A DNA stretch of 64,000 nt from Sedimentisphaera salicampi (GCF_002117005.1 NZ_CP021023.1:2466995-2530994); one strand, 5' to 3'. Positions 6,382 to 47,904 are shown, counted from the first letter of the stretch. Notes: generated by a model not told the origin, from the letters alone. A program made the numbers and translations.

Positions 6382-6407
6382 TTTTGTTATACCTTTCCAA
6401 TTCTAAG

Positions 6408-7808
6408 CTAATTGTTCTTTTGTTTCCTTACATTCTTCCACTGACGCTTCTTTGCATTGAGCTCGGTTTCTATGCCCTTGTCTCCCTGCTGAGCCATCCA
6501 CTCGTCAAGCCTTGCCTTCAGGCGTTTGAAGGTGTCTTCATAGCCCGGATTGTCTGCGAGATTGTTGATATTTGCGGGATCTGCTTTAACATCATAAAGT
6601 TCAAATTCAGGGCGGTGCTGATATTTATGGGTAAAGTGCTGAGCATGCTTATCGCCCTTCTCAGCGAGCTCCATCATAGACTTAAATTCCGGATACGGCC
6701 TTTCAGTGAGCATATTCTGGAATTCATTATCAGGCATCAGGTTCCAAATCAAACGATAGCGATTATCTCTCACTGAACGGATTGGATAAGGCTCTTTGCT
6801 GTAGTAAATTCCTCTGGTAGTCTGGAGGCCGAATGTATATTCCTTGTGCTTGTCGGTTTTGCCGGTGAGAAGGCCGAGCATACTTTTGCCGTCGAGTATT
6901 TCCGGCATCTTACCTCCCGCTGCTTCAATGAAGGTAGGCGTTACGTCAACATACTCCACAATAGCATCGCTCTCGCTTCCTTGATTCACCTTCCCGGGCC
7001 AGCGGACAATCATAATCGAGCCGAGCCCGTCTTCATAGCAAGTCCATTTAGCAAAGGGGAGGCTGTTGCCCTGCTCTGAAACCACCATCACAATCGTATT
7101 CTTAGAGAGGTTGTGTTTATCCAGCAGCTCGAGGATCTGCCCAACCTGATTGTCGTAATAGGTTATCTCAGCAAGATATTTAACCCATCTTTTACGCATA
7201 ACCGGCGTATCCGGCAGATATGGAGGCAAAACAATCTTGTCAGGATCGTACTGAGAAGGGTTGCCTTTGTTCCATGGCGTATGCGGCTCATTTGAGCACG
7301 CAAACAGGCAGAACGGATCGCCCTTTTCTGTGCACTCAGAGAACATTTTGTCGATAGCGTTCATATCAGGGTTGTGTTTTTTGCCGCTGTATTCAAACGG
7401 GAAAACGCTTTCGGGCTGGATGTGGCGTTTCCCTGATAGGGCAACTCTGTAGCCCAGCGGTTTGAGATAATGAACTATGCTCTTTGTCCCTTCTTTTGCG
7501 CAGGTATGATTGGGATATGCCCCGCTCTTCACCGGATACAGGCCTGTGTAGATGTTGTGCCTTGTGGGCGAGCACATCGGGGCGGCCTGAAAGCAGTTGT
7601 TCATCTTCATTCCCTGCGTTGCGAGTTTGTCTATGTTGGGTGTGTGGGCGTCTCCGCCGTAGCAGCCGATGTCTCGGAATGTGCAGTCGTCGGCCATAAT
7701 GAAAACAAAATTCGGCTTCTCTGAATGTCCTGCCGCCTCAAGCAGACTCCCCGCTCCGAGGCTGAAGGCCGCTGCTGAGGCGTATTTTACAAAATCTCTT
7801 CGTTTCAT
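6408..7808 (-). CDS. Tat-exported Cys-type sulfatase, tandem paralogue B
   Basis: S1-family sulfatase of 466 residues. It has a twin-arginine leader (KRRDFVKYAS), the MADDC metal segment, and a CSPTR formylglycine motif near residue 79 followed by TG. It is a close paralogue of the gene at 7811-9208: the first 97 residues are identical, while the middle (about 145-270) differs at many positions and the C-terminal third is again very similar. Only 2 bases separate the two genes, so they are cotranscribed. Divergence in the middle, where substrate-binding loops lie in this family, suggests related but not identical sulfated substrates. Confidence 0.93.
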   Translation of the reverse strand: MKRRDFVKYASAAAFSLGAGSLLEAAGHSEKPNFVFIMADDCTFRDIGCYGGDAHTPNIDKLATQGMKMNNCFQAAPMCSPTRHNIYTGLYPVKSGAYPNHTCAKEGTKSIVHYLKPLGYRVALSGKRHIQPESVFPFEYSGKKHNPDMNAIDKMFSECTEKGDPFCLFACSNEPHTPWNKGNPSQYDPDKIVLPPYLPDTPVMRKRWVKYLAEITYYDNQVGQILELLDKHNLSKNTIVMVVSEQGNSLPFAKWTCYEDGLGSIMIVRWPGKVNQGSESDAIVEYVDVTPTFIEAAGGKMPEILDGKSMLGLLTGKTDKHKEYTFGLQTTRGIYYSKEPYPIRSVRDNRYRLIWNLMPDNEFQNMLTERPYPEFKSMMELAEKGDKHAQHFTHKYQHRPEFELYDVKADPANINNLADNPGYEDTFKRLKARLDEWMAQQGDKGIETELNAKKRQWKNVRKQKNN

Positions 7809-7810
7809 AT

Positions 7811-9208
7811 TTATTTGTCCCTGTGTTTTTTAACGAACTTCCATTTGCGTTTGTCTGCATTGAGTTCGGTTTCTATGCCCTTATCTCCCTGCTGAGCCAT
7901 CCACTCGTCAAGCCTTGCCTTCAGGCGATTGAAGGTGTCTTCATAGCCCGGATTGTCTGCGAGATTGTTGATATTTGCAGGATCTGCTTTAACATCGTAA
8001 AGCTCAAATTCAGGGCGGTGCTGATATTTATGGGTAAAGTGCTTTGCGTGCCTGTCGCCTTTTTCTGCAAGCTTCAGCATAGACTCAAACTCTTTAGACC
8101 GCTCAGTTGCAGCATTCTCGAATTTGTTATCAGGCATAAGATTCCAGATCAGCCGGTACCGCTCATCCCTAACAGAGCGGATTGGATACGGCTGTTCACT
8201 GAAAAATATCCCATTAGTTGTCTGAATGCCGAAGGTGTATCTTTTATGCTTGTTTGTTTTGCCGGTGAGCAGGCCGAGCATACTTTTGCCGTCGAGGATT
8301 TCCGGGGTCTTGCCGCCTGCCGCCTCAATGAAGGTAGGCGTTACGTCAACATACTCCACGATAGCATCGCTCTGGCTTCCCGGCTTAACCTTTCCGGGCC
8401 AGCGGACAATCATAATCGAGCCGAGGCCGTCTTCATAGCAAGTCCATTTGGCAAACGGAAGGGCGTTGCCCTGCTCTGAAACCACCATAACCATCGTGTT
8501 CTCTGAGAGGTTGTGTTTATCGAGCAGATCGAGAATCTGACCAACCTGCTTGTCGAAGTAGGTTACTTCCGCAAGGTATTTGGTAAGAGATTCACGAACA
8601 ACCGGCGTATCAGGAATATAAGAACGCAGCTTTAAATCTTCAGCATCATACTGAGATGGATCGCCTTTGTTCCATGGCGTATGCGGCTCATTTGAGCATG
8701 CAAACAGGCAGAATGGATTGCCCTTCTCGCTGGAGTCGTGGAAAAGCTCTTCAATCACCTTCATATCAGGGTTGTTGTTTTTCTTGCTGTATTCAAACGG
8801 GAAAACGCTTCTTGGATGTATGTGCCGCTTGCCGGAAAGGGCAACTCTGTAGCCCAGCGGTTTGAGATAATGAACTATGCTCTTTGTCCCTTCTTTGGCG
8901 CAGGTATGGTTTGGATGCGCCCCGCTCTTAACGGGGTACAGGCCTGTGTAGATGTTGTGCCTTGTAGGCGAGCACATCGGGGCAGCCTGAAAGCAGTTGT
9001 TCATCTTCATTCCCTGCGTTGCGAGCTTGTCTATGTTGGGTGTGTGGGCGTCTCCGCCGTAGCAGCCGATGTCTCGAAATGTGCAGTCGTCGGCCATAAT
9101 GAAAACAAAATTCGGTTTCTCTGAATGTCCTGCCGCCTCAAGCAGACTTCCCGCTCCGAGGCTGAAGGCCGCTGCTGAGGCGTATTTTACAAAATCTCTT
9201 CGTTTCAT
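7811..9208 (-). CDS. Tat-exported Cys-type sulfatase, tandem paralogue A
   Basis: S1-family sulfatase of 465 residues with the same twin-arginine leader, MADDC segment and CSPTR maturation motif as its neighbour at 6408-7808. It differs mainly between residues 135 and 260, for example HIHPRSVFPFEY against HIQPESVFPFEY, and in the linker around the DTPV motif. An AAGGGGCG ribosome site precedes the start. It begins 17 bases after the stop of the arylsulfatase at 9226-10845, so it is the second gene of the operon. Expected location is the periplasm after Tat export, with the Cys converted to formylglycine in the cytoplasm. Confidence 0.93.
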   Translation of the reverse strand: MKRRDFVKYASAAAFSLGAGSLLEAAGHSEKPNFVFIMADDCTFRDIGCYGGDAHTPNIDKLATQGMKMNNCFQAAPMCSPTRHNIYTGLYPVKSGAHPNHTCAKEGTKSIVHYLKPLGYRVALSGKRHIHPRSVFPFEYSKKNNNPDMKVIEELFHDSSEKGNPFCLFACSNEPHTPWNKGDPSQYDAEDLKLRSYIPDTPVVRESLTKYLAEVTYFDKQVGQILDLLDKHNLSENTMVMVVSEQGNALPFAKWTCYEDGLGSIMIVRWPGKVKPGSQSDAIVEYVDVTPTFIEAAGGKTPEILDGKSMLGLLTGKTNKHKRYTFGIQTTNGIFFSEQPYPIRSVRDERYRLIWNLMPDNKFENAATERSKEFESMLKLAEKGDRHAKHFTHKYQHRPEFELYDVKADPANINNLADNPGYEDTFNRLKARLDEWMAQQGDKGIETELNADKRKWKFVKKHRDK

Positions 9209-9225
9209 TTTATCGCCCCTTGCCG

Positions 9226-10845
9226 TTAGCGTTTTACTTTTCTGCCGGGTTTAGGTATGCAGTTTACTTTCTCTGCCCACTCATACCACTTCTGCGAGAG
9301 CTCTTTAACGAGTTCAGGCTTCTTTTCTGCAAGGTCGCTGAGCTCTGTTCTGTCGGCCTCCATATCGTAGAGCTCCCATTTGTTTTCATCTTCCCAGAGC
9401 TTGTGGCGAACGGCTTTCCATTTGCCCTTTCTCACTGCTGCGTGATATTCGTGCTCGAAGAACATATACTTATGTCCCTGCCTTTTGCCTGTGGTTATTG
9501 CAGGGACAAGGCTGATTCCGTCGCTCTTCGGGATTTTATGCCCTTTGAATTTTTCAGGGTATTCTGCTCCCGCAAGGTCGGTGCATGTTGCCATAATATC
9601 AATCAGATATCCTGTTTCGTGGGTGATTGTGCCTTTGGTTTTCGCTGTTGCTTTTGGCCAGTGTGCGATAAGCGGCGTTGAAATCCCGCCTTCATGCACA
9701 TAATGCTTGTATCTCCTGAAAGGCGTGTTGGAGGCATTTGCCCATGCCCTGCCGTAGGAGATGCAGCCGTAGTATTTCGGGTTGTTCACTCTATCCAGCG
9801 GAGCTCCTCCGAGCTCGCCGCCTTCTGCGCAGCCTCCGTTATCGCTCATAAACAGAATAAGCGTGTTATCCAGCTTGCCCTGCTTCTTGAGAGACTCAAC
9901 CAGCTTGCCAACATTGTAGTCCATCGAGTGAACCTGAGCGGCATAAACTGCCATTCGGTAGTCCATTTCGTCTTTCTTTTTCTCGCTGAGCGAATCCCAA
10001 GGCCTCGCATCCCTTGGAGCCATTTCCCAGTCTTTCAGAAGCCCCATCTCAATCTGACGCTTGTTTCTTTCCTCTCGAATCTTATCCCAGCCCTTCATAT
10101 ACTTGCCGCGGAATTTCTCCACATCTTCCTTCTTTGCGTGAAGAGGCCAGTGCGGAGCGGTGTAGGCCAGATACAGGAAGAACGGCTCCTGATCTTTCTG
10201 CTCTTTAATGAATTTTATCGCATTATCCGTAAAAGCGTCGGTTGTGTAATAGTTGGGGTCGTTGATTTCAATCTGTTCATTATCCCGTGTAATCCCCCTT
10301 GGAGGTTCGGGGCGGAAAAAGTTTGAAGCTCCCGCTAATATGCCGTAGAATCTGTCGAAACCGCGCTGAAGAGGCCACATATGCCGTTCAGACATACCCA
10401 AATGCCATTTGCCTGCCATATATGTATGATAGCCGGCGGTTTTAAGCACCTCTGCTATGGTAACGCAGTTCTTGTTCATACTTCCGCGATAGCCCTCAAC
10501 GCCTTTATCATGCTTTTTGCTGTTCGGCGGGTTTGTCATATGGCCGATATCGGTTTGGTGGGGGTGGAGGCCGGTCATAAGGCTTGCACGTGTCGGGCAG
10601 CACCTTGCTGTATTGTAGAACTGGCTGAAACGAACTCCGTTCTGGGCGAGGTTGTCCAGATTGGGCGTGTCGATTTCGCCGCCGTAGCAGCCTATATCCG
10701 AATACCCCATATCGTCAACGAGCACAACAACTATATTAGGCCTGTCTGTGGGAGCGGCTAAGCCGTAGCTCCCCGCTGCGGCAGCTATAACGCCCGCTCC
10801 TGTGGCCTTGAGGAAATTTCTTCTGCTGAAAAACTTTTTGTCCAT
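9226..10845 (-). CDS. Arylsulfatase (AtsA-like), Tat-exported, first gene of sulfatase operon
   Basis: S1-family arylsulfatase of 539 residues, longer than its three operon partners. The leader SRRNFLK matches the twin-arginine consensus well. VDDMGYSDIGCYGG gives the first metal ligands and CCPTRASLMTG is the formylglycine motif near residue 80. MAGKWHLG holds the conserved Lys/His pair, and FMSDNGG provides later metal ligands. The C-terminal WKAVRHKLW and WELYDM segments are typical of the AtsA subgroup. A TGGAGCG ribosome site lies upstream. The AT-rich region 10846-10980 must hold the operon promoter. Confidence 0.94.
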   Translation of the reverse strand: MDKKFFSRRNFLKATGAGVIAAAAGSYGLAAPTDRPNIVVVLVDDMGYSDIGCYGGEIDTPNLDNLAQNGVRFSQFYNTARCCPTRASLMTGLHPHQTDIGHMTNPPNSKKHDKGVEGYRGSMNKNCVTIAEVLKTAGYHTYMAGKWHLGMSERHMWPLQRGFDRFYGILAGASNFFRPEPPRGITRDNEQIEINDPNYYTTDAFTDNAIKFIKEQKDQEPFFLYLAYTAPHWPLHAKKEDVEKFRGKYMKGWDKIREERNKRQIEMGLLKDWEMAPRDARPWDSLSEKKKDEMDYRMAVYAAQVHSMDYNVGKLVESLKKQGKLDNTLILFMSDNGGCAEGGELGGAPLDRVNNPKYYGCISYGRAWANASNTPFRRYKHYVHEGGISTPLIAHWPKATAKTKGTITHETGYLIDIMATCTDLAGAEYPEKFKGHKIPKSDGISLVPAITTGKRQGHKYMFFEHEYHAAVRKGKWKAVRHKLWEDENKWELYDMEADRTELSDLAEKKPELVKELSQKWYEWAEKVNCIPKPGRKVKR

Positions 10846-15458: not shown

Positions 15459-15501
15459 TTATGAAATTGTTTGATTTTCCTTAGGAGTGAAAAAATTAAA
15501 T

Positions 15502-16281
15502 ATGAATAGATACCTTGAACTAAGCATTGAATACGCTAACCAAAGGTCTTACCTTGATGATTTGTATTCTGTTTATCCTACTATTCCTGAAGGTATTAGA
15601 AACATAGACAAGCAGGCTTGGGGCAAGGTAGAAGCCGCATTCAACAAGGGCAATAATTACGAACTAATTAAGCGGCTTCTTGAGTTTGATTTATTCCCAA
15701 TTAAGGACAGTTATGTAGCGTACCTGCGTCGGGATAAAAGCTCGCTGGAGCGAAACCCAAAAACAATTAACAGATTGTCCGGCCGTCTTTATGAGATGGG
15801 GTTGGATTTGATTTATCAGAAATGCAGCGAGGCGAAAGAAACAAACCGTCAGATAGGGCCTATGTTTCGAAAATGGGCGGCAAGCAAATCTTTAGGTCTG
15901 AAGCCCTGCTCTTTGGAGCAATTTGTCTCCAATAATGAAGATGCTGTTCTTGAAGGCAGTGATGTGCAGTTGATGCGTTTCGCAAAAGAACATTTAGGAT
16001 ATAATCACAATAAGGGGCTTGACTTAGTTGCAAGATTTAATGGTAAATATGTAATCGGGGAAGCAAAATTTCTTACAGATTTCGGCGGCCATCAAAATTC
16101 GCAGTTCAGAGATGCTCTGGCAACGCTGGATGCCGAGGTTGATGCGGTTGCTGTTGCGGTATTGGATGGCGTATTGTACATCCGGGGAAAAAACAAAATG
16201 TACACAGAGCTAACTGAAATTTCTGCTGAAAAGAATATAATGAGTGCATTGCTGCTCAGGGAATTCTTATACAGTTTATAA
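15502..16281 (+). CDS. Probable type II restriction endonuclease (PD-(D/E)xK fold)
   Basis: This protein of about 260 residues sits 5 bases before a DNA methyltransferase. Near its C-terminus GLDLVARFNG leads into YVIGEAK, giving Asp174 and Glu187-x-Lys189, the catalytic triad pattern of PD-(D/E)xK nucleases. It is followed by FGGHQNSQFRDAL, as in several type II enzymes. The N-terminal 130 residues are helical with no recognisable motif. ATG 15502 is preferred (AGGAG upstream); a GTG at 15487 is in frame but overlaps the ribosome site. The region reads richer in A+T than argH and tex around it, a sign of acquisition. Recognition sequence cannot be read. It cuts unmethylated foreign DNA if active. 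Confidence 0.72.
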   Translation: MNRYLELSIEYANQRSYLDDLYSVYPTIPEGIRNIDKQAWGKVEAAFNKGNNYELIKRLLEFDLFPIKDSYVAYLRRDKSSLERNPKTINRLSGRLYEMGLDLIYQKCSEAKETNRQIGPMFRKWAASKSLGLKPCSLEQFVSNNEDAVLEGSDVQLMRFAKEHLGYNHNKGLDLVARFNGKYVIGEAKFLTDFGGHQNSQFRDALATLDAEVDAVAVAVLDGVLYIRGKNKMYTELTEISAEKNIMSALLLREFLYSL

Positions 16282-16286
16282 GGTAA

Positions 16287-17345
16287 ATGATGAAAAATCT
16301 TTTAATAAAAGGTGAAAATTTGGAAGCCTTGAAGCTTCTCTTGGAAGAAAGAGGGCTTGAAGGCAGTATAGATTTAGTCTATATAGACCCGCCTTTTGCA
16401 ACTGGAACGGATTTCAAGGTGTCGCTAAACCGCAGCTCCACCGTAAGCTCAGCAAATGGGGGCAGTTTAGCATACTCGGATAAAATAAAGGGCAGCGAGT
16501 TTATAGAGTTCCTCAGGGAAAGGCTTATCCTGCTGAAAAGATTGCTTTCTGAGAGAGGCTCTATTTATCTGCACACTGACTGTAAAATCGGTCATTACGT
16601 TAAGGTAATGATGGATGAGGTTTTTGGGATTGAAAATTTCAGGAATGATATAAGCAGGATAAAATGTAACCCGAAAAATTTCAATCGAACTGGTTTCAGC
16701 AATATAAAAGATATGATTCTTTTCTACTCCAAAGCAAAAAATCCAATCTGGAATGAGCCCAGGCAGGATTACTCAGAGAAGGATAAAGAAAAGCTGTTCC
16801 CAAAAACAGATTCACAGGGCAGGCGATATACCACAGTACCTATCCATGCCCCGGGCGAAACTAAAAACGGAAGGTCTTCTCAAGAATTCAAAGGGATGAA
16901 GCCCCCAGCCGGAAGGCATTGGCGGGTGGATGTTCAAACGCTTGAGAGCTGGGATGAGCAGGGGCTTTTGGAATGGTCTTCCAATGGTAACCCGAGAAAA
17001 ATAATATATGCAGACGAAAAGGATGGCAAGAGGGTGCAGGATATATGGGAATTCAAAGACCCGCAATACCCCACCTACCCCACTGAGAAAAATTCAAAAA
17101 TGCTGGAGATGATAATTAAGACATCTTCGCTGAAAAACAGCACTGTTTTGGATTGTTTCTGCGGCTCCGGAAGCACCTTGAGAGCTGCGGAAAAGCTCGG
17201 CAGAAGTTGGATAGGGATAGACAGTTCGCCGCAGGCAATAGAAACAGCGCAGAAAAATCTGCGTGAAGATTCGTCTTCAACTGCCCTTTTTGATTCTTGC
17301 AGTATGTATGAAATGTTGGATATTTCAGAACAGTCGATGGTTTAA
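16287..17345 (+). CDS. Site-specific DNA methyltransferase of the RM pair (beta class, N6-A or N4-C)
   Basis: This 352-residue SAM-dependent methyltransferase has motif order IV before I, the beta class: DPPF at residues 34-37 (catalytic motif IV), a variable target-recognition stretch at about 130-260, and DCFCGSGST at about 289-297 (SAM-binding motif I) followed by GRSWIGIDSS. Two adjacent ATGs (16287, 16290) follow an AAGGT. It protects host DNA from the endonuclease encoded just upstream. The C-terminal 30 residues have no known motif. The pair lies between tex and argH, two conserved housekeeping genes, so it looks like a cassette insertion without visible mobility genes. Confidence 0.88.
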   Translation: MMKNLLIKGENLEALKLLLEERGLEGSIDLVYIDPPFATGTDFKVSLNRSSTVSSANGGSLAYSDKIKGSEFIEFLRERLILLKRLLSERGSIYLHTDCKIGHYVKVMMDEVFGIENFRNDISRIKCNPKNFNRTGFSNIKDMILFYSKAKNPIWNEPRQDYSEKDKEKLFPKTDSQGRRYTTVPIHAPGETKNGRSSQEFKGMKPPAGRHWRVDVQTLESWDEQGLLEWSSNGNPRKIIYADEKDGKRVQDIWEFKDPQYPTYPTEKNSKMLEMIIKTSSLKNSTVLDCFCGSGSTLRAAEKLGRSWIGIDSSPQAIETAQKNLREDSSSTALFDSCSMYEMLDISEQSMV

Positions 17346-34398: not shown

Positions 34399-34426
34399 TT
34401 GACTAAGTGTTGATATATGTTAATAT
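34399..34426 (+). promoter_or_regulatory. Promoter of the AbiE operon
   Basis: TTGACT at 34399-34404 and TAATAT at 34421-34426 are separated by 16 bases. Transcription would start near 34433, which favours the ATG at 34458 over upstream starts (GTG 34407, ATG 34425). The local short repeats around TTGATATATGTTAATATG could be an AbiEi autoregulatory site. Confidence 0.5.
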
Positions 34427-34457
34427 GTATGAACAGTTAGTCAACAAGGCAGTACAA

Positions 34458-35066
34458 ATGGGAATAAAGGCTCAAAAACTTATCGAAAATCTTAGGCAGT
34501 ATGGGATGCTCAAAACAGGAGAAATCGTTGAGCTTGGCATCTCGAAGGAGTATCTTCGAAAGCTTACGGTACAAGGAACTGTGGAGAGGGTTTCCCGCGG
34601 CCTCTACACTCTTCCCAACAATGATTACTCGCCAATGCAGAGCATTGCTGAGGTTTCAAAACAGGTGCCCAAAGGTGTAATCTGCCTTCTTTCTGCTCTG
34701 CGTTTTCACGGATTTACAACACAGAATCCATTTGAGGTTTGGATTGCGATAGAAAATCGTTCCCGCAAACCCGAAATTAAAGCTTCTGCTAAGGTGAGGT
34801 ATGTTCGGTTTTCGCAAAGAGCATTTACCGACGGGATACAGGAGAAACGGATAGATCAGCTTAAGGTGCGAGTTTATTCGCCGGCAAAGACGGTGGCGGA
34901 TTGTTTTAAATATCGCAACAAGATAGGGCTGGATACGGCTCTGGAAGCCCTTAGAGAAGGCTGGCGGGAAAAGCGTTTTACAATGGATGAGCTTTGGAAA
35001 TACGCCAAAGTGTGCAGGGTGAGCAATGTGATGCAGCCATATCTTGAAAGCATTACTGCATTATGA
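34458..35066 (+). CDS. abiEi: AbiEi-family antitoxin (type IV toxin-antitoxin)
   Basis: This winged-helix antitoxin and autorepressor protects against the linked nucleotidyltransferase and, as a pair, can give phage abortive infection. The N-terminal wHTH has LRQYGMLKTGEIVELGIS and VSRGLYTLP. The AbiEi C-terminal domain has SALRFHGFTTQNPFEVWIAI and VYSPAKTVADCFKYRNKIG, both diagnostic. ATG 34458 is chosen from the promoter position and an AAGG upstream; ATG 34425 is possible and would add 11 residues. The toxin gene overlaps its stop by 4 bases (ATGA). The pair sits inside the RHS-bounded island. Confidence 0.88.
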   Translation: MGIKAQKLIENLRQYGMLKTGEIVELGISKEYLRKLTVQGTVERVSRGLYTLPNNDYSPMQSIAEVSKQVPKGVICLLSALRFHGFTTQNPFEVWIAIENRSRKPEIKASAKVRYVRFSQRAFTDGIQEKRIDQLKVRVYSPAKTVADCFKYRNKIGLDTALEALREGWREKRFTMDELWKYAKVCRVSNVMQPYLESITAL

Positions 35067-36004
35067 GCAATCGGGAAAAGAAAAACATAGCTGATTCCAT
35101 TTTACAGCGTCTGAAAAATTATTCGCAGATGCAAAGGGAAGATCGCGGCCTTACGCTAACAAATTATGCAATAGAGCGTTTTCTTTATCGATTGAGCAAT
35201 TCTCAATATGCCGGTCAGTTTGTTCTCAAGGGAGCGCAGCTTTTTCGGGTATGGGGGAATAATCCTTACCGGCCAACGAGAGATCTTGATTTGCTTGGGT
35301 TCGGCAATCCTGATGTTTCCCAGCTGGAGGAGGTTTTCAGAAATATTTGCCGGGTCGAAACTGATGTGCAGGACGGCATCATATATAAAGCGGAATCTGT
35401 GAGAGGGCAGGCAATTCGGGAAGATAATATGTATGACGGCGTAAGGATTAAGCTTGAATACAGAATAGGGCGTACGGGAGAATTTATGCAGGTAGATATT
35501 GGGTTTGGAGATGCGGTTGATTCTTCTGCAAAGATGGTTGCTTTCCCCTCAATCCTGAATATGCCTGCCCCCGAGCTCAGGGTGTATCCATATGAACTGG
35601 CAGTGGCGGAAAAGGTTGAAGCAATGGCAGCTCTTGGTTTTGCAAACAGTCGGATGAAAGACTTTTACGATGTGTATCAGCTTGCGGGAGAATTTGAATT
35701 CGACGGCAAACTCTTAGCTCAGGCGATTCAAACTACATTCAAGCGAAGGGGGACAGTGATACCAGAAGGGCTTCCCACTGCGTTTACCAAAGAATTCTGC
35801 GAGGACAAATTGAAACAGAGGCAGTGGGAAGCTTTTATCTCAAAAAATAGCCTAAAAGAGATTTCTTTTCCATCAGCAGCAGACAAAATAAAAGATTTTA
35901 TTCTTCCGGTGCTCAGAGCTTTGGCAGAAAGTAAAAGCTTTGAACTTATTTGGAAACCCGGCAGACAATGGAGTAAAGAAAGAAAAAATTGGAGCAACTG
36001 TTAA
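35063..36004 (+). CDS. abiEii: AbiEii-family nucleotidyltransferase toxin
   Basis: This 313-residue toxin of the type IV AbiE system is a predicted nucleotidyltransferase; characterised relatives add nucleotides to tRNA 3' ends and stop growth. Motif I is FVLKGAQLFRVW (53-64) and the metal motif is TRDLDLLGFG (72-81, Asp74 and Asp76). VAEKVEAMAALGFANSRMKDFYDVYQL near 180-205 carries the conserved Lys and Asp. It overlaps abiEi by 4 bases. The last few codons (KNWSNC) lie inside the first copy of a 70-bp repeat, so the natural C-terminus may have been replaced. Confidence 0.9.
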   Translation: MSNREKKNIADSILQRLKNYSQMQREDRGLTLTNYAIERFLYRLSNSQYAGQFVLKGAQLFRVWGNNPYRPTRDLDLLGFGNPDVSQLEEVFRNICRVETDVQDGIIYKAESVRGQAIREDNMYDGVRIKLEYRIGRTGEFMQVDIGFGDAVDSSAKMVAFPSILNMPAPELRVYPYELAVAEKVEAMAALGFANSRMKDFYDVYQLAGEFEFDGKLLAQAIQTTFKRRGTVIPEGLPTAFTKEFCEDKLKQRQWEAFISKNSLKEISFPSAADKIKDFILPVLRALAESKSFELIWKPGRQWSKERKNWSNC

Positions 36005-39351: not shown

Positions 39352-39486
39352 GCTCGCCTGCATTACAGGCAAGTCAATGGAGCTGAATAGTATGCCAATT
39401 ATAGCAATTGTATTGTAAAATCATTTTATTTTGCAAGTCAGTAAAGTAAAAAATAAAGACAATTAGTAGATAAAATTTCAGAGACC

Positions 39487-40905
39487 TTACTTAGCCCCCC
39501 AAAGCGTATCTCTCGTGTCTATTTTAGACCACTTCTTGATAGAATCAACGACCTGCTGGATCATATCCTGATATGCTGGATTATCCGAGATATTGGTAAT
39601 TTCTAAGGGGTCATTTTGTAAATCATACATATCAACAGAATCCAGCTCCGGCTCATAGATAACCTTGAACCTTCCGTCAAAATGCATAACGGCTTTGCCC
39701 CATCCCCAATACTGCATTTCACTTCTGACAAAAGAACGGTGGCTATTTGATTCTCCTATAAGATAGGGCAGCAAAGACTTGCCCTGAACATTTTCAGGGG
39801 TGTCAAATTTGAGCATATCCATAAAAGTTGGGAATAAATCTATCAGCTCAACAAGCTCTTCGCTTCTTTTGCCCTGCGGAATTAAACCAGGCATACTCAT
39901 AATAATTGGAACTCTGACAGATTCCTCGAAAAAATTCATCTTACCCCACTTGTGATGGCATCCAAGCATTTCGCCGTGGTCTGAGACATACACAATAAGA
40001 GTATCCTCCCTGATTCCGAGACGGTCAACCTCATCAAGGACTTCTTTGAACATATCATCAGAAAACTTCAATCCTGCGTAATATGCCCTCATTCTGTCAT
40101 TTTTTTCATCATCCGGCGGAACTTCGCCTTCTGATGAAAGATACGGATGAGCATCATCAAGGTCGTCAGCAGGATATTGAGGAAGCTGAAAATTCACACC
40201 TTCAAACTCATCCCAGTTTTCTTTAGGCGGCATATACGGGCCGTGAGGTTTCAGAAAGGAGCATTGTATAAACCAGCTTTTATCCATATTATCCCGCATA
40301 AACTGAATTGTCCTTTCCTTCACCTGATATTCGAAATGCGCCTCTTTGGTATATACAGACGGGCTGTTATCTTTAGGGGGATCCGAGGAGATCCTGTAAT
40401 TTTCCAGATCATCCGGTTCTTCGAAGTGCCTCCATAGTGAATATTTCCACAATCCATTTTTTATATCCCAATCTATCTCGTCTCGGCCAAAGATATGGAG
40501 TTTGCCGTATAGAGCTGCTGTCATACCATTCTCTCTCATAATTTGAGTATAGCTTTTCAGATCTGTATGAGAATAGTTAGAGTTTGCCCATACCCCTGTA
40601 GTATGAGACGGGCATCCCTGCATCATTGCATTTCTGCTCGGCACACAAAGCGGACACTGACAGTATGCCCTGTTAAAATATATTCCAGCAGAGGCAAGTT
40701 GATCTAAAGCGGGAGTTCTGGCGTAGGGGTCGCTATTGATTCCCATTGCCTGCGGCCTGTGCTGGTCTGTCATTAAAAACAATACGCGTTTAGGCCTCTT
40801 AAATTTTTTAAAGCTTATAAATGCCTTCGAGCTTTCGTTCAAGGCAGCTATCGAAGCTGCCGTGGCGGCAGAAATTCTCAAAAATTCTCTTCTTGTAACA
40901 CTCAT
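39487..40905 (-). CDS. Tat-exported Cys-type sulfatase of the ECF-sigma operon
   Basis: This 472-residue S1 sulfatase has the twin-arginine leader TRREFLRISAATAAS and a MTDQHRP metal segment, as in choline-sulfatase-like and heparan-type enzymes. The formylglycine motif is CVPSRNAMMQG near residue 85, i.e. CxPSR with QG for the usual TG. Later metal ligands are in YVSDHGEMLG near 300. It is the last gene of the run sigma-FecR-LamG-LamG-sulfatase and starts 32 bases after the second LamG gene, so it is expected to respond to the same ECF sigma factor. It differs clearly from the four sulfatases at 4969-10845. Confidence 0.92.
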   Translation of the reverse strand: MSVTRREFLRISAATAASIAALNESSKAFISFKKFKRPKRVLFLMTDQHRPQAMGINSDPYARTPALDQLASAGIYFNRAYCQCPLCVPSRNAMMQGCPSHTTGVWANSNYSHTDLKSYTQIMRENGMTAALYGKLHIFGRDEIDWDIKNGLWKYSLWRHFEEPDDLENYRISSDPPKDNSPSVYTKEAHFEYQVKERTIQFMRDNMDKSWFIQCSFLKPHGPYMPPKENWDEFEGVNFQLPQYPADDLDDAHPYLSSEGEVPPDDEKNDRMRAYYAGLKFSDDMFKEVLDEVDRLGIREDTLIVYVSDHGEMLGCHHKWGKMNFFEESVRVPIIMSMPGLIPQGKRSEELVELIDLFPTFMDMLKFDTPENVQGKSLLPYLIGESNSHRSFVRSEMQYWGWGKAVMHFDGRFKVIYEPELDSVDMYDLQNDPLEITNISDNPAYQDMIQQVVDSIKKWSKIDTRDTLWGAK

Positions 40906-40937
40906 ATAATTATCCTTTTTTTTAATTTCATCAGTTC

Positions 40938-43241
40938 TTAAGGCCAGGTCAAATCACTTTCGAGCCAAATTGCTGCCAAGCCCAAGAGATCATGATAATC
41001 GCAAACACCATCTCCATTTATATCTCCTTCAGGCGGTTGGAGAGCTGAATTTGTTCCTGTCCAAGATGTCAAAGAGAGTATTTGCTGATGAGTTAAAGCA
41101 GTTGAATAGATTCTCAGTTCATCAATCTTTCCCTTGTAAAACCCAAGATCAGGATCCTTGCCCAATTTAAAACCCCGCCACAGATTAAAGCCAGAAGGGA
41201 TTTTTTCTTTTTGCTGTGCAACTTTCAAAACACCGTCAAGGAAAATATTTAATGTTTTTTCTGACTTTTCAAAGACAAAGGCCAGATGATGCCATCTTTC
41301 CGACCAGTCCTGCGGGGCAGCCTTTAAGCAGGCCTTGCCGAAAGCAATATTTCCTTCATTACCGGGAAACATAATTCTTTCCAGTTTGTCCTGTTTGTAG
41401 GCCCCATTTGAAACACACATTTTTTCGAGAAAATCTCTTTCACCCTTAAACCAAAAGGCGACTGTGAATCCTGAGGCCCCTCCGGTAATAGAGCCGGCTT
41501 GATCACCGCCCCAATCAAAGAAAGATATGCTGTAAGTTCCGTCGAGATAAACGCAGCCGACATTTTCATCCGATTTAGCCCAGCTGTCATTATAATCTCT
41601 TACTATTTCCTGACAGATAACATCCCTGCCATTTCCAGAGCTGTCCTGAACTAATTGCCCCTGCCCATCAAATTTGTAGTGTATTTCTAAAGTGCCTGAT
41701 GATTCCGGCGGAGGCGAAGAATACACCCAATGCCCCCCTGTATCGTAATCAAACACCATTTTCGCAAAATCTTTGAGATCAATCCTCCTGTCTAAGTTCA
41801 AGTCTTGCGGGAACTTTTCCTCAATATACACAGAGGGCATCAGATAGAAATCATCCAGCCACAAACTGCCTGAAGAATTGGCTGGAGAATTTGCAATATT
41901 TTCTAAATAAAAAGCAAATGAAACAATGCTCGAAACATCTATATCTTCCGAAAGGCTGCTTAAAACAATGCGTTGTGGGCTCCACCGCCAATGCGGGAGC
42001 TGAGAAACATCATTCAAAAGCAAAATCTCTTCGCTTTCATTGTTTGAATCAGTAAAAACTGCTTTCAGTTTTGCAGGCTCGCTCTCTTCGGCGCAAAGGA
42101 TTTCAAAATTAAAAACAGAGCTTTGGAAAATCCCCAGATTGACCGGTTTATCAAATGTATATTCCATAAAACCACCAAACTCAGCGGAGTCCAGCTGATA
42201 ATCAATTTTCAAAGAAGACTCCCCGCCTTCTGGATTATGCCATATATCAGAATCATTGCTCAAAGAGATGCTGCTGCTTGTAAACATATCTGCTGCAGGG
42301 CACTGCTCAATCTCAATCTCTTCACTCAATGAAAAACTCCAAACATCGCCCTTAATAATATTCTGTTTATCAGTTTCTGTATCTACGCGCCAGAAATACT
42401 GTTTCCCTGAACAAAGAAGTTCGCTTATGTCAAAATCCTTAACCAAGGGGCCAAGATTAAATGCTTGAACATCTTCAGAGCTGTTAACCGCCTGCTCTAC
42501 GCTCTCCTGAGATTCTCCAATATATAATATCTGACCTGCCGAATTGATTCCCGGAATCCACGAAAGGGAATCTTCCTCACAGGAAGACAAAAATCCTCCA
42601 TCTCGGGGAAAGGGGGCTCTGGAGGCTGATAAATGCTGTTCGCTAATAAGGGCATAACCCATAAGATAAAACGGTTTGCCGGACTTTTCGCTTACAGCAG
42701 AGATTTCAGCATTCGGAGAGTCTGGAACCCACGAGTATTCAGCGGTAATGATTGAATTGCTGTTATCCCCATCACTCCATTTTATATTGTTCTTTTCCCC
42801 TTCAGCCCCTGTTACCGAGAATTTGCACCAGTTCCAAGGCCAAGCAAGGAAAATACGCACTTTCAACTCAAAACCAACAGGGAGATTGGAGAAATTAATC
42901 TTCATATCCTGATAATCATGGCCAATTGCGTAGGTATTAAGAAGGTTGAATAAATCCTGATTATCACCGGTATAATAAACTCCTCCCTCTGAATATTTAT
43001 CCCCATAATTATCCATACCGCTCAAACCTGCATTCGAATTATCGTAGCTAAAGCCTTGAACTTCCACATCAACCGCATCAGGCGGACTGTTTCCAGGGTT
43101 CCCCACATTTACTGCTGTTATTTCGTATCCGCTCAAAACAGCAGCATCTTCCGGATTCGTAAAATTCTTATTTATTTGCCAAGAGCCTGCTGCGGCAAAC
43201 TGCTGAAAAACAAGAACAATTATAACAGTATGTATCTTCAT
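40938..43241 (-). CDS. Secreted multidomain LamG/dockerin-like protein (downstream paralogue)
   Basis: This 767-residue protein has a Sec signal (IIVLVFQQFAAAG). Domains, by eye: an N-terminal beta domain at about 25-200 containing WSDGDN and MGYALI; a fibronectin-like segment ending YFWRVDTETD near 285; a carbohydrate-binding-like region to about 480; a dockerin-type calcium loop DLNLDRRIDLKDF near 490; a LamG domain at about 520-720 (FWFKGERDF, RWHHLAFVFE, IDELRIYSTAL); and a C-terminal second calcium loop DINGDGVCDYHDL. It shares this order with the paralogue at 43315-45639. It is probably a surface glycan-binding or scaffold protein; no catalytic site is seen. A hairpin terminator precedes it. 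Confidence 0.78.
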   Translation of the reverse strand: MKIHTVIIVLVFQQFAAAGSWQINKNFTNPEDAAVLSGYEITAVNVGNPGNSPPDAVDVEVQGFSYDNSNAGLSGMDNYGDKYSEGGVYYTGDNQDLFNLLNTYAIGHDYQDMKINFSNLPVGFELKVRIFLAWPWNWCKFSVTGAEGEKNNIKWSDGDNSNSIITAEYSWVPDSPNAEISAVSEKSGKPFYLMGYALISEQHLSASRAPFPRDGGFLSSCEEDSLSWIPGINSAGQILYIGESQESVEQAVNSSEDVQAFNLGPLVKDFDISELLCSGKQYFWRVDTETDKQNIIKGDVWSFSLSEEIEIEQCPAADMFTSSSISLSNDSDIWHNPEGGESSLKIDYQLDSAEFGGFMEYTFDKPVNLGIFQSSVFNFEILCAEESEPAKLKAVFTDSNNESEEILLLNDVSQLPHWRWSPQRIVLSSLSEDIDVSSIVSFAFYLENIANSPANSSGSLWLDDFYLMPSVYIEEKFPQDLNLDRRIDLKDFAKMVFDYDTGGHWVYSSPPPESSGTLEIHYKFDGQGQLVQDSSGNGRDVICQEIVRDYNDSWAKSDENVGCVYLDGTYSISFFDWGGDQAGSITGGASGFTVAFWFKGERDFLEKMCVSNGAYKQDKLERIMFPGNEGNIAFGKACLKAAPQDWSERWHHLAFVFEKSEKTLNIFLDGVLKVAQQKEKIPSGFNLWRGFKLGKDPDLGFYKGKIDELRIYSTALTHQQILSLTSWTGTNSALQPPEGDINGDGVCDYHDLLGLAAIWLESDLTWP

Positions 43242-43252
43242 TCTTTTCCCCT

Positions 43253-43286
43253 AAAAAAGGCCTGCCTGAAAAACAGAGCAGGCCTT
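43253..43286 (-). terminator. Intrinsic terminator/attenuator between the two LamG genes
   Basis: On the minus strand a perfect 9-bp stem (AAGGCCTGC, 12-base loop, GCAGGCCTT) runs into six T residues in all, ending at 43253, just 11 bases before the next ATG. It lies after the first LamG gene and inside the operon, so it should reduce transcription of the second LamG gene and the sulfatase. Confidence 0.75.
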
Positions 43287-43314
43287 TGTTCGTTTTGTTT
43301 AAAATAAGCGGAAT

Positions 43315-45639
43315 TTATTTAGATACCGGCCAGAGAAGCTCTCCTGGCCAAAGCTCTGAAAGATTGATTAAATCGTCGGAATCTACATCACCATCCTGAT
43401 CGAAATCGCAGGATTTAGGCATATCGTACGGCTGGACAACGCTGCCAGTTTCGCCTTTTGCAAGATAAACAATTTCTTCCTGAGTTAATGCGTAGGAATA
43501 AACCCTGAATTCGTCCATCTTTCCTGTAAAATAATCAGACCAGCTGTTTGCCCCTACAAGAGCTATATTTGAATCGGCAAGAAGTGTAGGTTCATCGGCA
43601 CCGCGTTTCTCAGCGGTGAGAACACCGTCAACATATATCTTCATTGTTCCCTCAACGGCATCCTGAACAAAGGCATAGTGATGCCACTGGCCAACCGCAT
43701 CAACCGGGTCAAAGCTGTGTGAGGCAAGATATCCGTTAGTGCCGGTATTCATAACCAAGCTTCCGCCAAAATTAGGTACTGAAGCCCTAAGTACGTTATC
43801 ACCGGTACTATTTACGTACAATCTGAAAACTCCTGCATTTGCTGGAGCCTGCTGCTGAGATTTAACCCACATTGAAACGGTTGCTTCTTCTGGTTCAGCC
43901 AGTTCGCCAAATGTAAGCCCCCATACATAAAGCAGATAACTCCCGTCAAATACTATGCTCGAATTACCTTCTACAGATTCATCAAAGCTGTCCTCGGTGT
44001 CCCAAATAATATTTTCGTTATTACAGTCAGCTGAATTCCCTGAATGATCTACCACTTGTTCACCGCTGGCAGAATCAAATTTATACCAGCACCTCAAATA
44101 GTTGGGATCTTCGGAAGGTTTTACCGCATTTACTGTCTCATCTGCGGCAAAATAATTATCCGCAAACCATGAGAAATCCGCAAAGGTAAGAAGTTCATCC
44201 TGATTCAAATCTTCGGGAAAATTCTCAGCTGCATAGAACGGCGGCATAACCCTGAAATCGTCCACATAAAGTGTACCGCTCAAACCAGACTCGGGATTCT
44301 CGCTGCTGCCTATTTGGATAGATATGCTGATAATATCGGTTACATCAACGCCGAGCGAAGTCAGCTCATTATTTAAAAATCTTGCTTCAGCCCATTTCAG
44401 GTATGAAGGGAAATCCACTTCCATCACAGCAGATTCGGATGAACCGTCTTCGAACTCAACATATACAGGAGCCTCGTCTGAGCCGCTGCCTGATAGGAAA
44501 AACATTGAATTGTAAGCAAAAGTAAACTCTGTCATATCAAGCGGCTCTGCAAAAGACCTTGTAACCAGTGCATATCCCGGAGACATTGAGGTGTCGTAAT
44601 TTACTGCAAGTGCTCCGTATTCCATCTCGTTTTGATCCCAGTGAATGAAATTTGGGTCATTCTCCATTGAAGCCGCTGAATTGGCAGTCCAATTGACCGC
44701 CAGCGGATCTTGGATGTAGCTGTTTACTTCAGAAGAAGAAAAAGTCCAGACAATACCCTTTGAAACTGAAGAGTCTGAGTTTACCTCATCAATTCTCCAG
44801 TAATAAGTGGTATCGGGCTCAATAGCCGCCTCTAAACTCTCATTGCCTAACGTAAAATTGCCCACATACTCTGGACTTGATGTGTCTGCTGAATCAACAT
44901 CTTCGAAAGACTCGCCAAAAAATACATCATGGCTCACAGCATCATTTCCAGCGATCCAGCTTAGCTGAATTTCCTTGTAACTATCCACACGCTCAACAAC
45001 TTCACCTTCTTCGTCCAGAGGAGTATCAGCCGGCTCTGGAGCACGAGCCTGATTAGGATTCAGCGGCGAATAAAGTGCATATCCAAAAGCGTGAACTGGT
45101 TTATTGTTCTTCTTGCTGTATATGAAAAACTCCGCATTTTCCGAATCAGCCACCCATTCATAAGTGCCAATATTTAGAGCATTTGCATTATCTCCAGATC
45201 CGAAATTAAATACCAAACTTTCACCCTGGGGGGCATCAATTGCGTATTTAAGCCATCCCCATGGCCATGCAGTTACAATCTGAAAACGGTATTCAACTCC
45301 CGGTATCAGGTCGCTGAATGAGATTGTCATACCGTATTCTTTGAAAACAGAAGCACGGTTCAGAAATCTGTCATAATTTTCATCGGCCCCTGAATAATAG
45401 CCTAAGCCGTCCGAATACCAATTGCTGCCTGATATGTTGCTGTAATCAGTATCAAAATTAACACCGGCTATTTCTGCTTCATTAGGCTCGTTTGCCAGAT
45501 TACTGGCTTTGATCTGATAGCCGCTTGAATCCAGATAGACACCCAGATCAGTGGGATCTACATTGCGATCCTCCTCCCATGTCCCAGAAAAACAGGAAAC
45601 TGCCATAACTGCAACCAAAAAAAACGTTACTCTCTTCAT
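43315..45639 (-). CDS. Secreted multidomain LamG/dockerin-like protein (upstream paralogue)
   Basis: This 774-residue protein has a Sec signal (FFLVAVMAVSCFSG). The architecture matches its neighbour: N-terminal beta domain at about 20-190 with FNFGSGDN and AFGYALY; fibronectin-like part ending TYYWRIDEVNSDSS near 285; carbohydrate-binding-like part with LYVDDFRVMPPFYAAENFPEDL near 460; calcium loop DLNQDELLTFADF; LamG domain at about 530-730 (SMWVKSQQQ, WHHYAFVQD, MDEFRVYSYALT); and C-terminal loop DFDQDGDVDSDDL. Overall sequence identity is modest, so the duplication is old. It lies 56 bases downstream of fecR with GAGGTG as ribosome site. Likely role: outer-surface glycan binding or cell-surface display. 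Confidence 0.78.
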   Translation of the reverse strand: MKRVTFFLVAVMAVSCFSGTWEEDRNVDPTDLGVYLDSSGYQIKASNLANEPNEAEIAGVNFDTDYSNISGSNWYSDGLGYYSGADENYDRFLNRASVFKEYGMTISFSDLIPGVEYRFQIVTAWPWGWLKYAIDAPQGESLVFNFGSGDNANALNIGTYEWVADSENAEFFIYSKKNNKPVHAFGYALYSPLNPNQARAPEPADTPLDEEGEVVERVDSYKEIQLSWIAGNDAVSHDVFFGESFEDVDSADTSSPEYVGNFTLGNESLEAAIEPDTTYYWRIDEVNSDSSVSKGIVWTFSSSEVNSYIQDPLAVNWTANSAASMENDPNFIHWDQNEMEYGALAVNYDTSMSPGYALVTRSFAEPLDMTEFTFAYNSMFFLSGSGSDEAPVYVEFEDGSSESAVMEVDFPSYLKWAEARFLNNELTSLGVDVTDIISISIQIGSSENPESGLSGTLYVDDFRVMPPFYAAENFPEDLNQDELLTFADFSWFADNYFAADETVNAVKPSEDPNYLRCWYKFDSASGEQVVDHSGNSADCNNENIIWDTEDSFDESVEGNSSIVFDGSYLLYVWGLTFGELAEPEEATVSMWVKSQQQAPANAGVFRLYVNSTGDNVLRASVPNFGGSLVMNTGTNGYLASHSFDPVDAVGQWHHYAFVQDAVEGTMKIYVDGVLTAEKRGADEPTLLADSNIALVGANSWSDYFTGKMDEFRVYSYALTQEEIVYLAKGETGSVVQPYDMPKSCDFDQDGDVDSDDLINLSELWPGELLWPVSK

Positions 45640-45695
45640 AATTCACCTCATTAAAAAATTAAAAAAACTGTTAAAAACCAAATACTTTTGCAATG

Positions 45696-47246
45696 TTATT
45701 CGCCTTCAGTGGCTTCAATTTCTTCCAAGAAATAGCCGAACAATCTGGATTTCGTGTACTTATCCTTTGATGCTAAAATCATTATCTCTGCATCTTCTCT
45801 GTGAGCTTTCCACTCGAAGCTTGCTACACCGTAATTATTTGGATCACTGGAAAACCACCACATATACTCTCTATTGACACCATAAAAATTGATCCCGCTC
45901 CACTTGTCTTCTAAACCTACTATGAGAGATATTTTGTAGCGTTTTTCTGGAACAAGATTGTTGATTTTTATCATCACTCTTCTTCCTGAAGCCGCTTTAA
46001 TATCCAGATATGAATAAAAGAGATTATTAGAAAATTCATTGCTGCCGGCAGGAATCTCTTGTGTCTGGGAAATTCTTGTTGCTTTGTTGGAGTAAAAACT
46101 GCGGTCAGCAACAAAACTTAAGCCCTTTGTATTAACTGAAACTGCATCCTTCCCAAAATTCTCTGCCTTTATAATTTTCCCTTCAACATTAAAGCCATCT
46201 TCAAGAGATTTGAGCGTTCTTCTTTGCCATTTTCCAACTTCAATAACTTTGTTTCCTCTGTAAATTACGCCTTTATCAGAAGAAAAATCTTCAGTAAAAA
46301 AATTCTTTTTTAGGTCAATCCACTGTGTCCACATATCAGCTACCTGCGTACAGGCATCTCCCTCTTTCACTTCCAAAACTGAAGAATACTCCTCATTTTC
46401 ATTTTTAGGGTAGAAGTTGGTTCTTCCCTTTTTAACGTGCAGCTCAGTAGAATCGTCGTCGTCATCCACAAAAATTCCAAATTCGGTTCCTAAATCTACA
46501 ATCTTAGAATTAGGAGTAAAAACCTGAAACCCTATTGCTCTTTCTGGAACTTTTGCGTAGAAGCTGCCCCTTTTCAGTTCAATATTCCCTTCCTTCAAAA
46601 GCTTGAAATTCGCAGGAGACTCTATAACAGCTTGTGTGCCTTTATCAAATGAAAGCTTGATAATTCCTGACTGAATTTTGAATAAGCCGTCAGAGGGGAA
46701 TATCTTTTTACCTTTTTCTAATTCATTTTCAGAGTTAGGGCCAAAATTGATTACATCTTTTACAACAGCAGAATCTTGAAAGTTTCTGATTTGCCCTGAA
46801 TTTCCGCTCGTTCTTACATAGTTCTCTACGGCAATCATGGAGACTAAAAATAACAAACCAGCAACCGCTAACCAGAAGATCCGTTTTCCCCTGCCTTCAA
46901 TCTTTCTTGGTGCAGCAGGAATTTTGCAAGCTGTTTTCTTTATTTCCTGAGTTTCATCTCTAACTCCCCGTCTTAAACACGGGGCTTTTTTTTCCCATGA
47001 TGCAAGCTCAAGCCACAGATTAATATCCTGTTCAATATCTGAAGAATTATCAGCCTCATATTTTAGAAGAGCATCCCCATTTTTAAGCTTAGTAAAAACA
47101 GTGAGATAATCGTAATAATACTTTCTTGCTTCGGAGCTATTTTCCAACAGTTTAAACATAGATTCCATCTGCTCTGGGCTGGCCTTGCCCTCAAGACTGC
47201 TTAGAATCAATCTGCTTAGCGAACCTTTGTTTATCTTCTTTGCCAT
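45696..47246 (-). CDS. FecR-domain anti-sigma-type protein with LamG-protein-like outer domain
   Basis: This 516-residue single-pass membrane regulator has a cytosolic N-terminus (about 1-120) that should bind the ECF sigma factor, a membrane helix at about 123-143 (IFWLAVAGLLFLVSMIAV), and a FecR domain at about 190-300 with IESPANFKLLKEGNIELKRG and VVDLGTEFGIFV-like sequence (IVDLGTEFGIF). The C-terminal domain at about 330-513 resembles the N-terminal domain of the two LamG proteins downstream: INNLVPEKRYKISLIV and a late LFGYFLEEIE correspond to FSNLPVGFELKVRI and LMGYALI. The start codon overlaps the sigma stop by one base (TAATG). It transmits an outside signal to the sigma factor. Confidence 0.85.
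   Translation of the reverse strand: MAKKINKGSLSRLILSSLEGKASPEQMESMFKLLENSSEARKYYYDYLTVFTKLKNGDALLKYEADNSSDIEQDINLWLELASWEKKAPCLRRGVRDETQEIKKTACKIPAAPRKIEGRGKRIFWLAVAGLLFLVSMIAVENYVRTSGNSGQIRNFQDSAVVKDVINFGPNSENELEKGKKIFPSDGLFKIQSGIIKLSFDKGTQAVIESPANFKLLKEGNIELKRGSFYAKVPERAIGFQVFTPNSKIVDLGTEFGIFVDDDDDSTELHVKKGRTNFYPKNENEEYSSVLEVKEGDACTQVADMWTQWIDLKKNFFTEDFSSDKGVIYRGNKVIEVGKWQRRTLKSLEDGFNVEGKIIKAENFGKDAVSVNTKGLSFVADRSFYSNKATRISQTQEIPAGSNEFSNNLFYSYLDIKAASGRRVMIKINNLVPEKRYKISLIVGLEDKWSGINFYGVNREYMWWFSSDPNNYGVASFEWKAHREDAEIMILASKDKYTKSRLFGYFLEEIEATEGE
46966..46993 (+). terminator. Antisense intrinsic-terminator-like hairpin inside fecR
   Basis: On the plus strand CCCCGT and ACGGGG (7-base loop) are followed by C and eight T residues, a textbook terminator, but it lies within fecR, which is read from the other strand. 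In protein it encodes the odd stretch KKAPCLRRGVRD at about 86-97. It could end an antisense transcript, or be a palindromic insertion that stayed in frame. Confidence 0.45.
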
Positions 47247-47749
47247 TAGTTTTCAGAGATTTTTCTGCCTATGCATCTTGCTAGTGTATCGTGAATCCTA
47301 GCCAGCTTTCGGAATGTCATATTAATAGACATACCAAGATTGCAGGCTATTTCCTTTAATGTACTACCTTTTTCATACCTCATAAAGAGCATCTTTCTCT
47401 CGTTTTTGGATATAAGCTGGATGCATTCCTGGAGAAGTTTCTCCTGCTGGGTTTCATTATTGCCTCCAGAAAAAGACTCTTCCTCTATCAGTTTCACCAG
47501 ATCATCTCCAAGATAGTTCATTCTTCTTTTTTTTCGCCAGAAATTTCTGATGCAATTCCTCGCTATGCCTCTTCCCCATCCTACAAAACTGCTATTGTCG
47601 TCATAAGTATCGAGTTTTCTCCACATTATGAGAGTGGTTTCTTGAAGAATGTCCTCTGCATCTGAGGCATTGGGAACTAAAAATATAATATATTGATAGA
47701 TGAACTTGCTTTCAGTCAGAATTTTTTGGGTGAACTGTTCTGAATTCAT
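47246..47749 (-). CDS. ECF-type RNA polymerase sigma factor
   Basis: This 167-residue sigma-70-family factor has region 2 (about 15-80) with DAEDILQETTLIMWRKLDTYD and SFVGWGRGIARN, and region 4 (about 110-165) with LLQECIQLISKNERKMLFMRYEKGSTLKEIACNLGMS, the -35-binding helix-turn-helix. It is of the short planctomycete/verrucomicrobial type. It heads a five-gene run (sigma, FecR, two LamG proteins, sulfatase) and is coupled to fecR by a TAATG overlap, so it probably drives its own operon under FecR control. No ordinary TTGACA/TATAAT promoter is visible in the AT-rich gap 47750-47904, which fits autoregulation through an ECF promoter. Confidence 0.9.
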   Translation of the reverse strand: MNSEQFTQKILTESKFIYQYIIFLVPNASDAEDILQETTLIMWRKLDTYDDNSSFVGWGRGIARNCIRNFWRKKRRMNYLGDDLVKLIEEESFSGGNNETQQEKLLQECIQLISKNERKMLFMRYEKGSTLKEIACNLGMSINMTFRKLARIHDTLARCIGRKISEN

Positions 47750-47904
47750 AAAATTATCCTAAGCCTTGAATCTGCTATCCTACAAAGTATTCGCATACGA
47801 AATGAGTTTTTTCTAAAAAAATTATTATTATTTGAAAAAATTCATAAAAAGTTTATTCAGGCTTTGAATAATAGTTTATGTGGGATTTGTTATGTAGAGG
47901 CTTT

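Follow-up and report, generated by a model that had tools for sequence, protein, structure and literature searches.

A predicted sugar-binding domain common to a FecR-type anti-sigma protein and the secreted LamG proteins of its operon in Sedimentisphaera salicampi

Planctomycetes possess many sulfatases and many FecR-type regulators. In the FecI/FecR/FecA system, an ECF sigma factor and a FecR-domain anti-sigma protein are encoded by an overlapping gene pair. The SigI/RsgI system of Clostridium (Acetivibrio) thermocellum uses membrane anti-sigma proteins that carry a carbohydrate-binding module at their outer C-terminal end; these exist as many paralogs with interchangeable modules, and their outputs are cellulosomal genes scattered across the genome. 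At least one such module is common to an anti-sigma protein and an output: the GH10 module of RsgI6 is 57% identical to Xyn10D, whose promoter is recognised by the sigma factor of RsgI6 (PMC4711584). The Dma anti-sigma factors of Bacteroides have domains outside the inner membrane and affect glycan loci (PMC13088901).

The operon described here lies in a 64,000-nucleotide stretch of S. salicampi DNA, referred to below as the window. Like FecI/FecR/FecA, it comprises an ECF sigma factor and a FecR-domain anti-sigma protein, but it lacks a TonB receptor, and its FecR bears an extra C-terminal sugar-binding-like domain. Several features recall SigI/RsgI: an outer C-terminal module (here a predicted fold only), interchangeable modules among sibling FecRs, and a module, hereafter domain X, common to the anti-sigma protein and its outputs. 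In contrast, SigI is not an ECF sigma factor, the N-terminal and periplasmic domains of RsgI differ from those of FecR, and the outputs of the window pair belong to one operon. Membership in SigI/RsgI was rejected, as the sigma is of ECF type and the FecR matches only PF04773 in Pfam; the cassette may nonetheless work by analogy with SigI/RsgI, with different sigma and anti-sigma families. The resemblance to Dma, drawn from its description, lies in anti-sigma domains beyond the inner membrane; Dma, in contrast, extends as far as the outer membrane, and its partner is ECF21.

Gene content and genomic setting of the operon

Five genes follow each other on the minus strand in the order sigma, FecR, LamG-1, LamG-2 and sulfatase, with the Pfam domains expected for each. 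The sequence-only reading had proposed this run, and every gene is present at its place. The features are the following:

39363..47901, no strand assigned: low-GC segment of 8.5 kb holding the whole operon (blastn to the sister species, GC)
47246..47749, minus strand: ECF sigma factor, probably of the Rhodopirellula/Verrucomicrobium (gvs1) type, 167 aa (Pfam, NCBIfam)
45696..47246, minus strand: FecR-type anti-sigma protein, 516 aa (PF04773)
46815..46889, minus strand: predicted membrane helix, FecR residues 120-144 (hydropathy 2.3)
45708..46238, minus strand: malectin-like domain that FecR shares with the LamG proteins, FecR residues 337-513 (sequence comparison, predicted fold)
43315..45639, minus strand: LamG-1, secreted, 774 aa (PF13385 4e-24, residues 583-723)
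45058..45588, minus strand: shared domain in LamG-1, residues 18-194 (profile comparison, predicted fold)
40938..43241, minus strand: LamG-2, secreted, 767 aa (PF13385 9e-14)
42636..43190, minus strand: shared domain in LamG-2, residues 18-202 (BLASTP, profile comparison)
39487..40905, minus strand: sulfatase with a twin-arginine-like signal (PF00884 3e-46)

The sigma and FecR genes overlap by 1 base, and the gaps downstream of the FecR gene measure, in order, 56, 73 and 32 bases, consistent with a single transcription unit. The sigma factor exhibits Pfam domains Sigma70_r2 (1e-13) and r4_2 (1e-7) and matches NCBIfam TIGR02989 over its full length (E 1e-35) with 122.9 bits, the curated cut-off being 124.55. 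The FecR protein assembles a cytoplasmic N-terminus, one membrane helix, the FecR domain and a C-terminal shared domain that Pfam leaves unannotated. Its sole Pfam match is PF04773 (28.7 bits, gathering cut-off 24), its residues 1-337 match 12 paralogs, the protein matches the sibling-FecR HMM with E 2e-73, and the gene of its cognate sigma (47246-47749) overlaps its start. These sequence features place it among the FecR-domain anti-sigma proteins, and inhibition of the sigma factor is predicted. LamG-1 is composed of the shared domain, an Ig-like repeat, LamG and a dockerin-like end, its signal-like N-terminus and dockerin-like repeats being read by eye; LamG-2 is 29% identical to it (BLASTP 2e-91). 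The sulfatase motif C-x-P-x-R is present as CVPSR at residue 87.

The segment holding the operon has a GC content of 37-45%, versus about 48-50% in its flanks, and is bordered by rmuC and a GNAT acetyltransferase gene. It is absent from the sister species (G001, L141): the blastn alignment stops at 39362 and restarts at 47902, the segment being replaced there by 46 unaligned bases, and about 1 kb separates rmuC (86% identical) from lysine aminomutase (98%) in that species. The operon was either gained as a unit or lost in the sister species, gain being favoured by the low GC. Inspection by eye revealed neither an integrase gene nor a terminal repeat at the segment. Elsewhere, the window contains an AbiEi/AbiEii type IV toxin-antitoxin pair (34407-36004; PF13338, PF08843), a Tsp45I-type restriction enzyme with an adjoining N6/N4 DNA methylase (15487-17345), and four consecutive sulfatases (4969-10845), the middle two of which (6408-7808 and 7811-9208) have a near-identical N-terminal third.

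Domain X and its predicted fold

The sequence-only reading had matched residue ranges in FecR and in both LamG proteins, with the motifs NLVP/DLIP, EW......AE and GYFLE/GYALY. Ranges and motifs are real and the shared domain exists, but its claimed extent of about 90 residues does not hold, the true span being about 180. X forms the N-terminal domain of both LamG proteins. BLASTP aligns FecR 337-507 with LamG-2 18-198 (E 9e-4), and plain pairwise BLAST of FecR with LamG-1 is not significant. Profile-profile comparison of two FecR copies with seven output copies, both profiles having been assembled in this analysis, yields a probability of 99.6% and an E-value of 1.3e-24 over 172 columns. A non-circular test used a profile built solely from the two FecR domains: across the whole genome (3.19 Mb) it returned four non-self matches, two of them being LamG-1 (5e-10) and LamG-2 (8e-10), an outcome for which we estimate odds of about 1e-5 if four matches were placed at random. 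As judged by these comparisons, FecR, LamG-1 and LamG-2 carry a homologous domain.

No model in Pfam or NCBIfam covers X, and none of its 23 members matches malectin in Pfam at E<=1. Searching solved-structure sequences with the X profile returned short fibronectin-like matches of 22-65 positions, which were judged to be loop similarity and were not used; the best whole-sequence E-value (3e-6) arose from repeated weak pieces, no single stretch passing. Most of the subfamily to which the window FecR belongs has a W-x-W motif. The first Trp of this motif is lost in the window FecR, which could have altered specificity.

AlphaFold2 predictions of FecR 316-516 (pLDDT 73, pTM 0.75) and of the LamG-1 N-terminus (pLDDT 84.5, pTM 0.86) exhibit a common fold with identical strand order, although both derive from one six-sequence alignment and are not independent. 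For FecR, one of five models is good, of middling confidence, the remaining four having a pLDDT of 56-60. With VIA-align, the FecR model resembles ANX2 (Z 11.4) and malectin (Z 10.4), and the LamG-1 model scores Z 12.3 against the C-terminal module from a Bacteroides beta-glucuronidase and Z 11.2 against malectin; CBM22, CBM35 and CBM61-type modules rank below these malectin-like top matches. Both models thus align over 140-150 residues with malectin-like beta-sandwiches at Z 10.4-12.3, and X is predicted to fold as a sugar-binding beta-sandwich of malectin/CBM57 type. It resembles malectin/CBM57 domains by this predicted fold (Z 10-12) and differs from them in having no Pfam match, the structural alignments showing 7-14% identity. 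Foldseek ranked binding modules from binary toxins and Cry proteins highest for the FecR model, with low TM; these were taken for generic sugar-binding-type sandwiches, and a toxin relationship was rejected.

Sibling FecRs, relatives and the origin of the sharing

FecRs of the window type number 13 in this genome. The other 12 possess an NPCBM-type C-terminus at the position occupied by X (8 of the 12 above the Pfam cut-off). The window FecR is not of this NPCBM type (PF08305), as it scores below 0 with the HMM of sibling C-termini and reaches an hhalign probability of 0.6%; sequence comparison detected no homology of X to the NPCBM domain. The 12 sibling operons resemble that of the window in their sigma type, in the N-terminal half of FecR and, often, in secreted LamG or sulfatase neighbours. 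In contrast, their NPCBM-type domain is absent from the neighbours: the HMM of the 12 C-termini found no copy in the genes adjoining those FecRs. NPCBM-type FecRs can also precede outputs with X (L053 and its ortholog L103, L095, L096), so domain matching is not needed for control. Together with the 12 unmatched siblings, this makes matching one particular form of a broader scheme, with an exchangeable module of sugar-binding type as the FecR C-terminus. A planctomycete plasmid (Singulisphaera) and a gammaproteobacterial one (Catenovulum) each hold a sigma gene beside a FecR relative annotated as LamG-like, with a GH16 gene alongside in the latter.

The Catenovulum pair, on a plasmid of Catenovulum adriaticum (L143 6880-9206), is of planctomycete type and adjoins genes for GH16, a further glycoside hydrolase and a dockerin-domain protein. 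The closest paralog of the window sigma (L057 9000-9704; G000:C1, near 367160; phmmer 2e-43) is followed only by an open stub of 86 aa that matches FecR residues 5-65, so that this pair is decayed or reduced. At another locus (L046 2454-5265), sigma, FecR and sigma genes lie on the same strand. A promoter motif common to the 13 sigma genes was not found upstream of them, AT-rich words alone emerging, barely above shuffled sequence.

FecRs with X occur in three of the genomes sampled, each from a different family, and every time the adjoining genes for secreted proteins encode X as well. The arrangement of sigma, FecR and X output thus recurs in relatives of S. salicampi. In a second family, which belongs to the same taxonomic order (G013; contig CALMLO010000012.1, 'uncultured Phycisphaerales bacterium'), sigma is followed by an X-bearing FecR, a prepilin-like gene, a PEP-CTERM-like X protein of 225 aa and an X-Ig-LamG protein of 667 aa, then GH16, LamG-GH128, GH128 and, further on, a sulfatase. 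The FecR frame at this locus (L058 801-2747) continues for about 135 Arg/Pro-rich residues past X, perhaps by a sequencing error near the true stop. The locus of the third family (G213) reads sigma, a FecR bearing a distant X copy, and a 227-aa X protein. A broad-profile scan of 397 genomes of the class, in which at most eight candidates were scored per genome so that counts are lower bounds, revealed no FecR with X beyond the three known, nor did all fetched loci. A single-protein FecR query against 84,980 genome species gave nothing confirmed, and one further alignment scan found only the known G013 contig.

In a tree of 23 X copies, the X domain of the G213 FecR is sister to that of its own neighbour (99/97), while those of the window and G013 FecRs form a group (90/93) on the opposite side of the tree. 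A single origin of X on FecR is rejected (AU p 4.9e-5 for a three-FecR clade); the tree therefore indicates that FecR acquired X at least twice, each time beside X-carrying outputs, two of the three loci probably sharing one origin. The X of the window FecR is a long branch of unsure exact position, and its grouping with the X domains of its own two LamG proteins was neither recovered in the tree nor rejected (AU p 0.15).

On one rival reading the sharing has no function: the FecR C-terminus would have copied a neighbouring domain by local duplication, sensing being left to the FecR domain proper or to an unlinked partner. The sister relationship in G213 and the 12 siblings that do without matching fit this scenario, but siblings and relatives have sugar-binding-type modules (NPCBM, LamG) in this C-terminal slot, the form of X is kept between the window and G013 FecRs at 25% identity, and a single gene is available as an unlinked TonB partner. 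We consider functionless sharing rather unlikely.

The same mutual closeness in G213, with the presence of X on both FecR and outputs in all three loci, would also fit a FecR that senses the amount of product, its X binding that of the outputs or competing with it for ligand. Most X outputs, however, follow FecRs that lack X or have no FecR nearby, and the matched folds are sugar-binding; product feedback thus appears quite improbable. It is very doubtful, likewise, that FecR recognises the X of its own products such that the cell gauges how much of its extracellular machinery is present, or how far it is assembled, instead of a nutrient.

Probable glycan sensing by the cassette

No TonB receptor is encoded in the operon, as the sequence-only reading had noted. 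FecA-type activation is unlikely, since the genome possesses one Plug (PF07715) gene, about 320 kb from the operon, against 13 FecRs. The operon is rather probably a self-contained polysaccharide-response cassette, a one-component glycan sensor built on an ECF/FecR pair. FecR would span the inner membrane once, its N-terminal part holding the ECF sigma and its outer end being the predicted malectin-like domain. Once this domain had bound a glycan outside the inner membrane, probably fragments of a sulfated polysaccharide, the sigma factor would be freed, most simply through FecR proteolysis. Cleavage is a natural guess, given that E. coli FecR is stated to be cut by RseP (PMC8144685) and that RsgI proteins signal via proteolysis (PMC12203970). 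The freed sigma would then transcribe the operon, its presumed regulon, and the exported LamG-1 and LamG-2, carrying the same X, would bind the sensed glycan, and the sulfatase, likewise exported, would desulfate it. Domain sharing would let sensor and products read one ligand. A literature search returned no link between FecR and NPCBM in planctomycetes or between FecR and malectin, an earlier mention of FecR with a C-terminal lectin being possible.

The gene neighbourhoods suggest that the ligand is a sulfated polysaccharide, in view of the window sulfatase, of the sulfatase, GH16 and GH128 genes of G013, and of the sulfatases together with GH128-type genes in another genome (G144). X is also fused to GH128-type catalytic domains (Glyco_hydro_cc) in S. 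salicampi (L056) and in G144 (L094). On a different reading, X would dock FecR or the outputs to a surface structure such as the outer membrane or pili, and the cassette would serve surface assembly. Prepilin-like genes and PEP-CTERM outputs in relatives, and the LamG, Ig-like and dockerin-like modules of the outputs, are in keeping with docking; the fusions to catalytic domains, the operon sulfatase and the enzyme genes of the relatives' clusters are not, and a structural role is accordingly given little credence. The sulfatase, GH16 and GH128 genes nearby in relatives speak for the use of polysaccharides over assembly. The sequence-only reading had offered two options, recognition of the same glycan by sensor and products or binding of the output proteins themselves; the former has indirect support and is preferred, while binding of the outputs and feedback control of surface assembly are not supported.

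Glycan sensing by FecR would provide a handle on how planctomycetes, here with almost no TonB receptors, select polysaccharide genes for activation. If the X of the sensor matches that of the products, the ligand of the regulator could be found by testing the products, which are easily purified. Recruitment of an output domain onto a regulator was earlier known in the unrelated SigI/RsgI system of Clostridium; its independent occurrence here suggests a general route by which bacteria may acquire new nutrient sensors.
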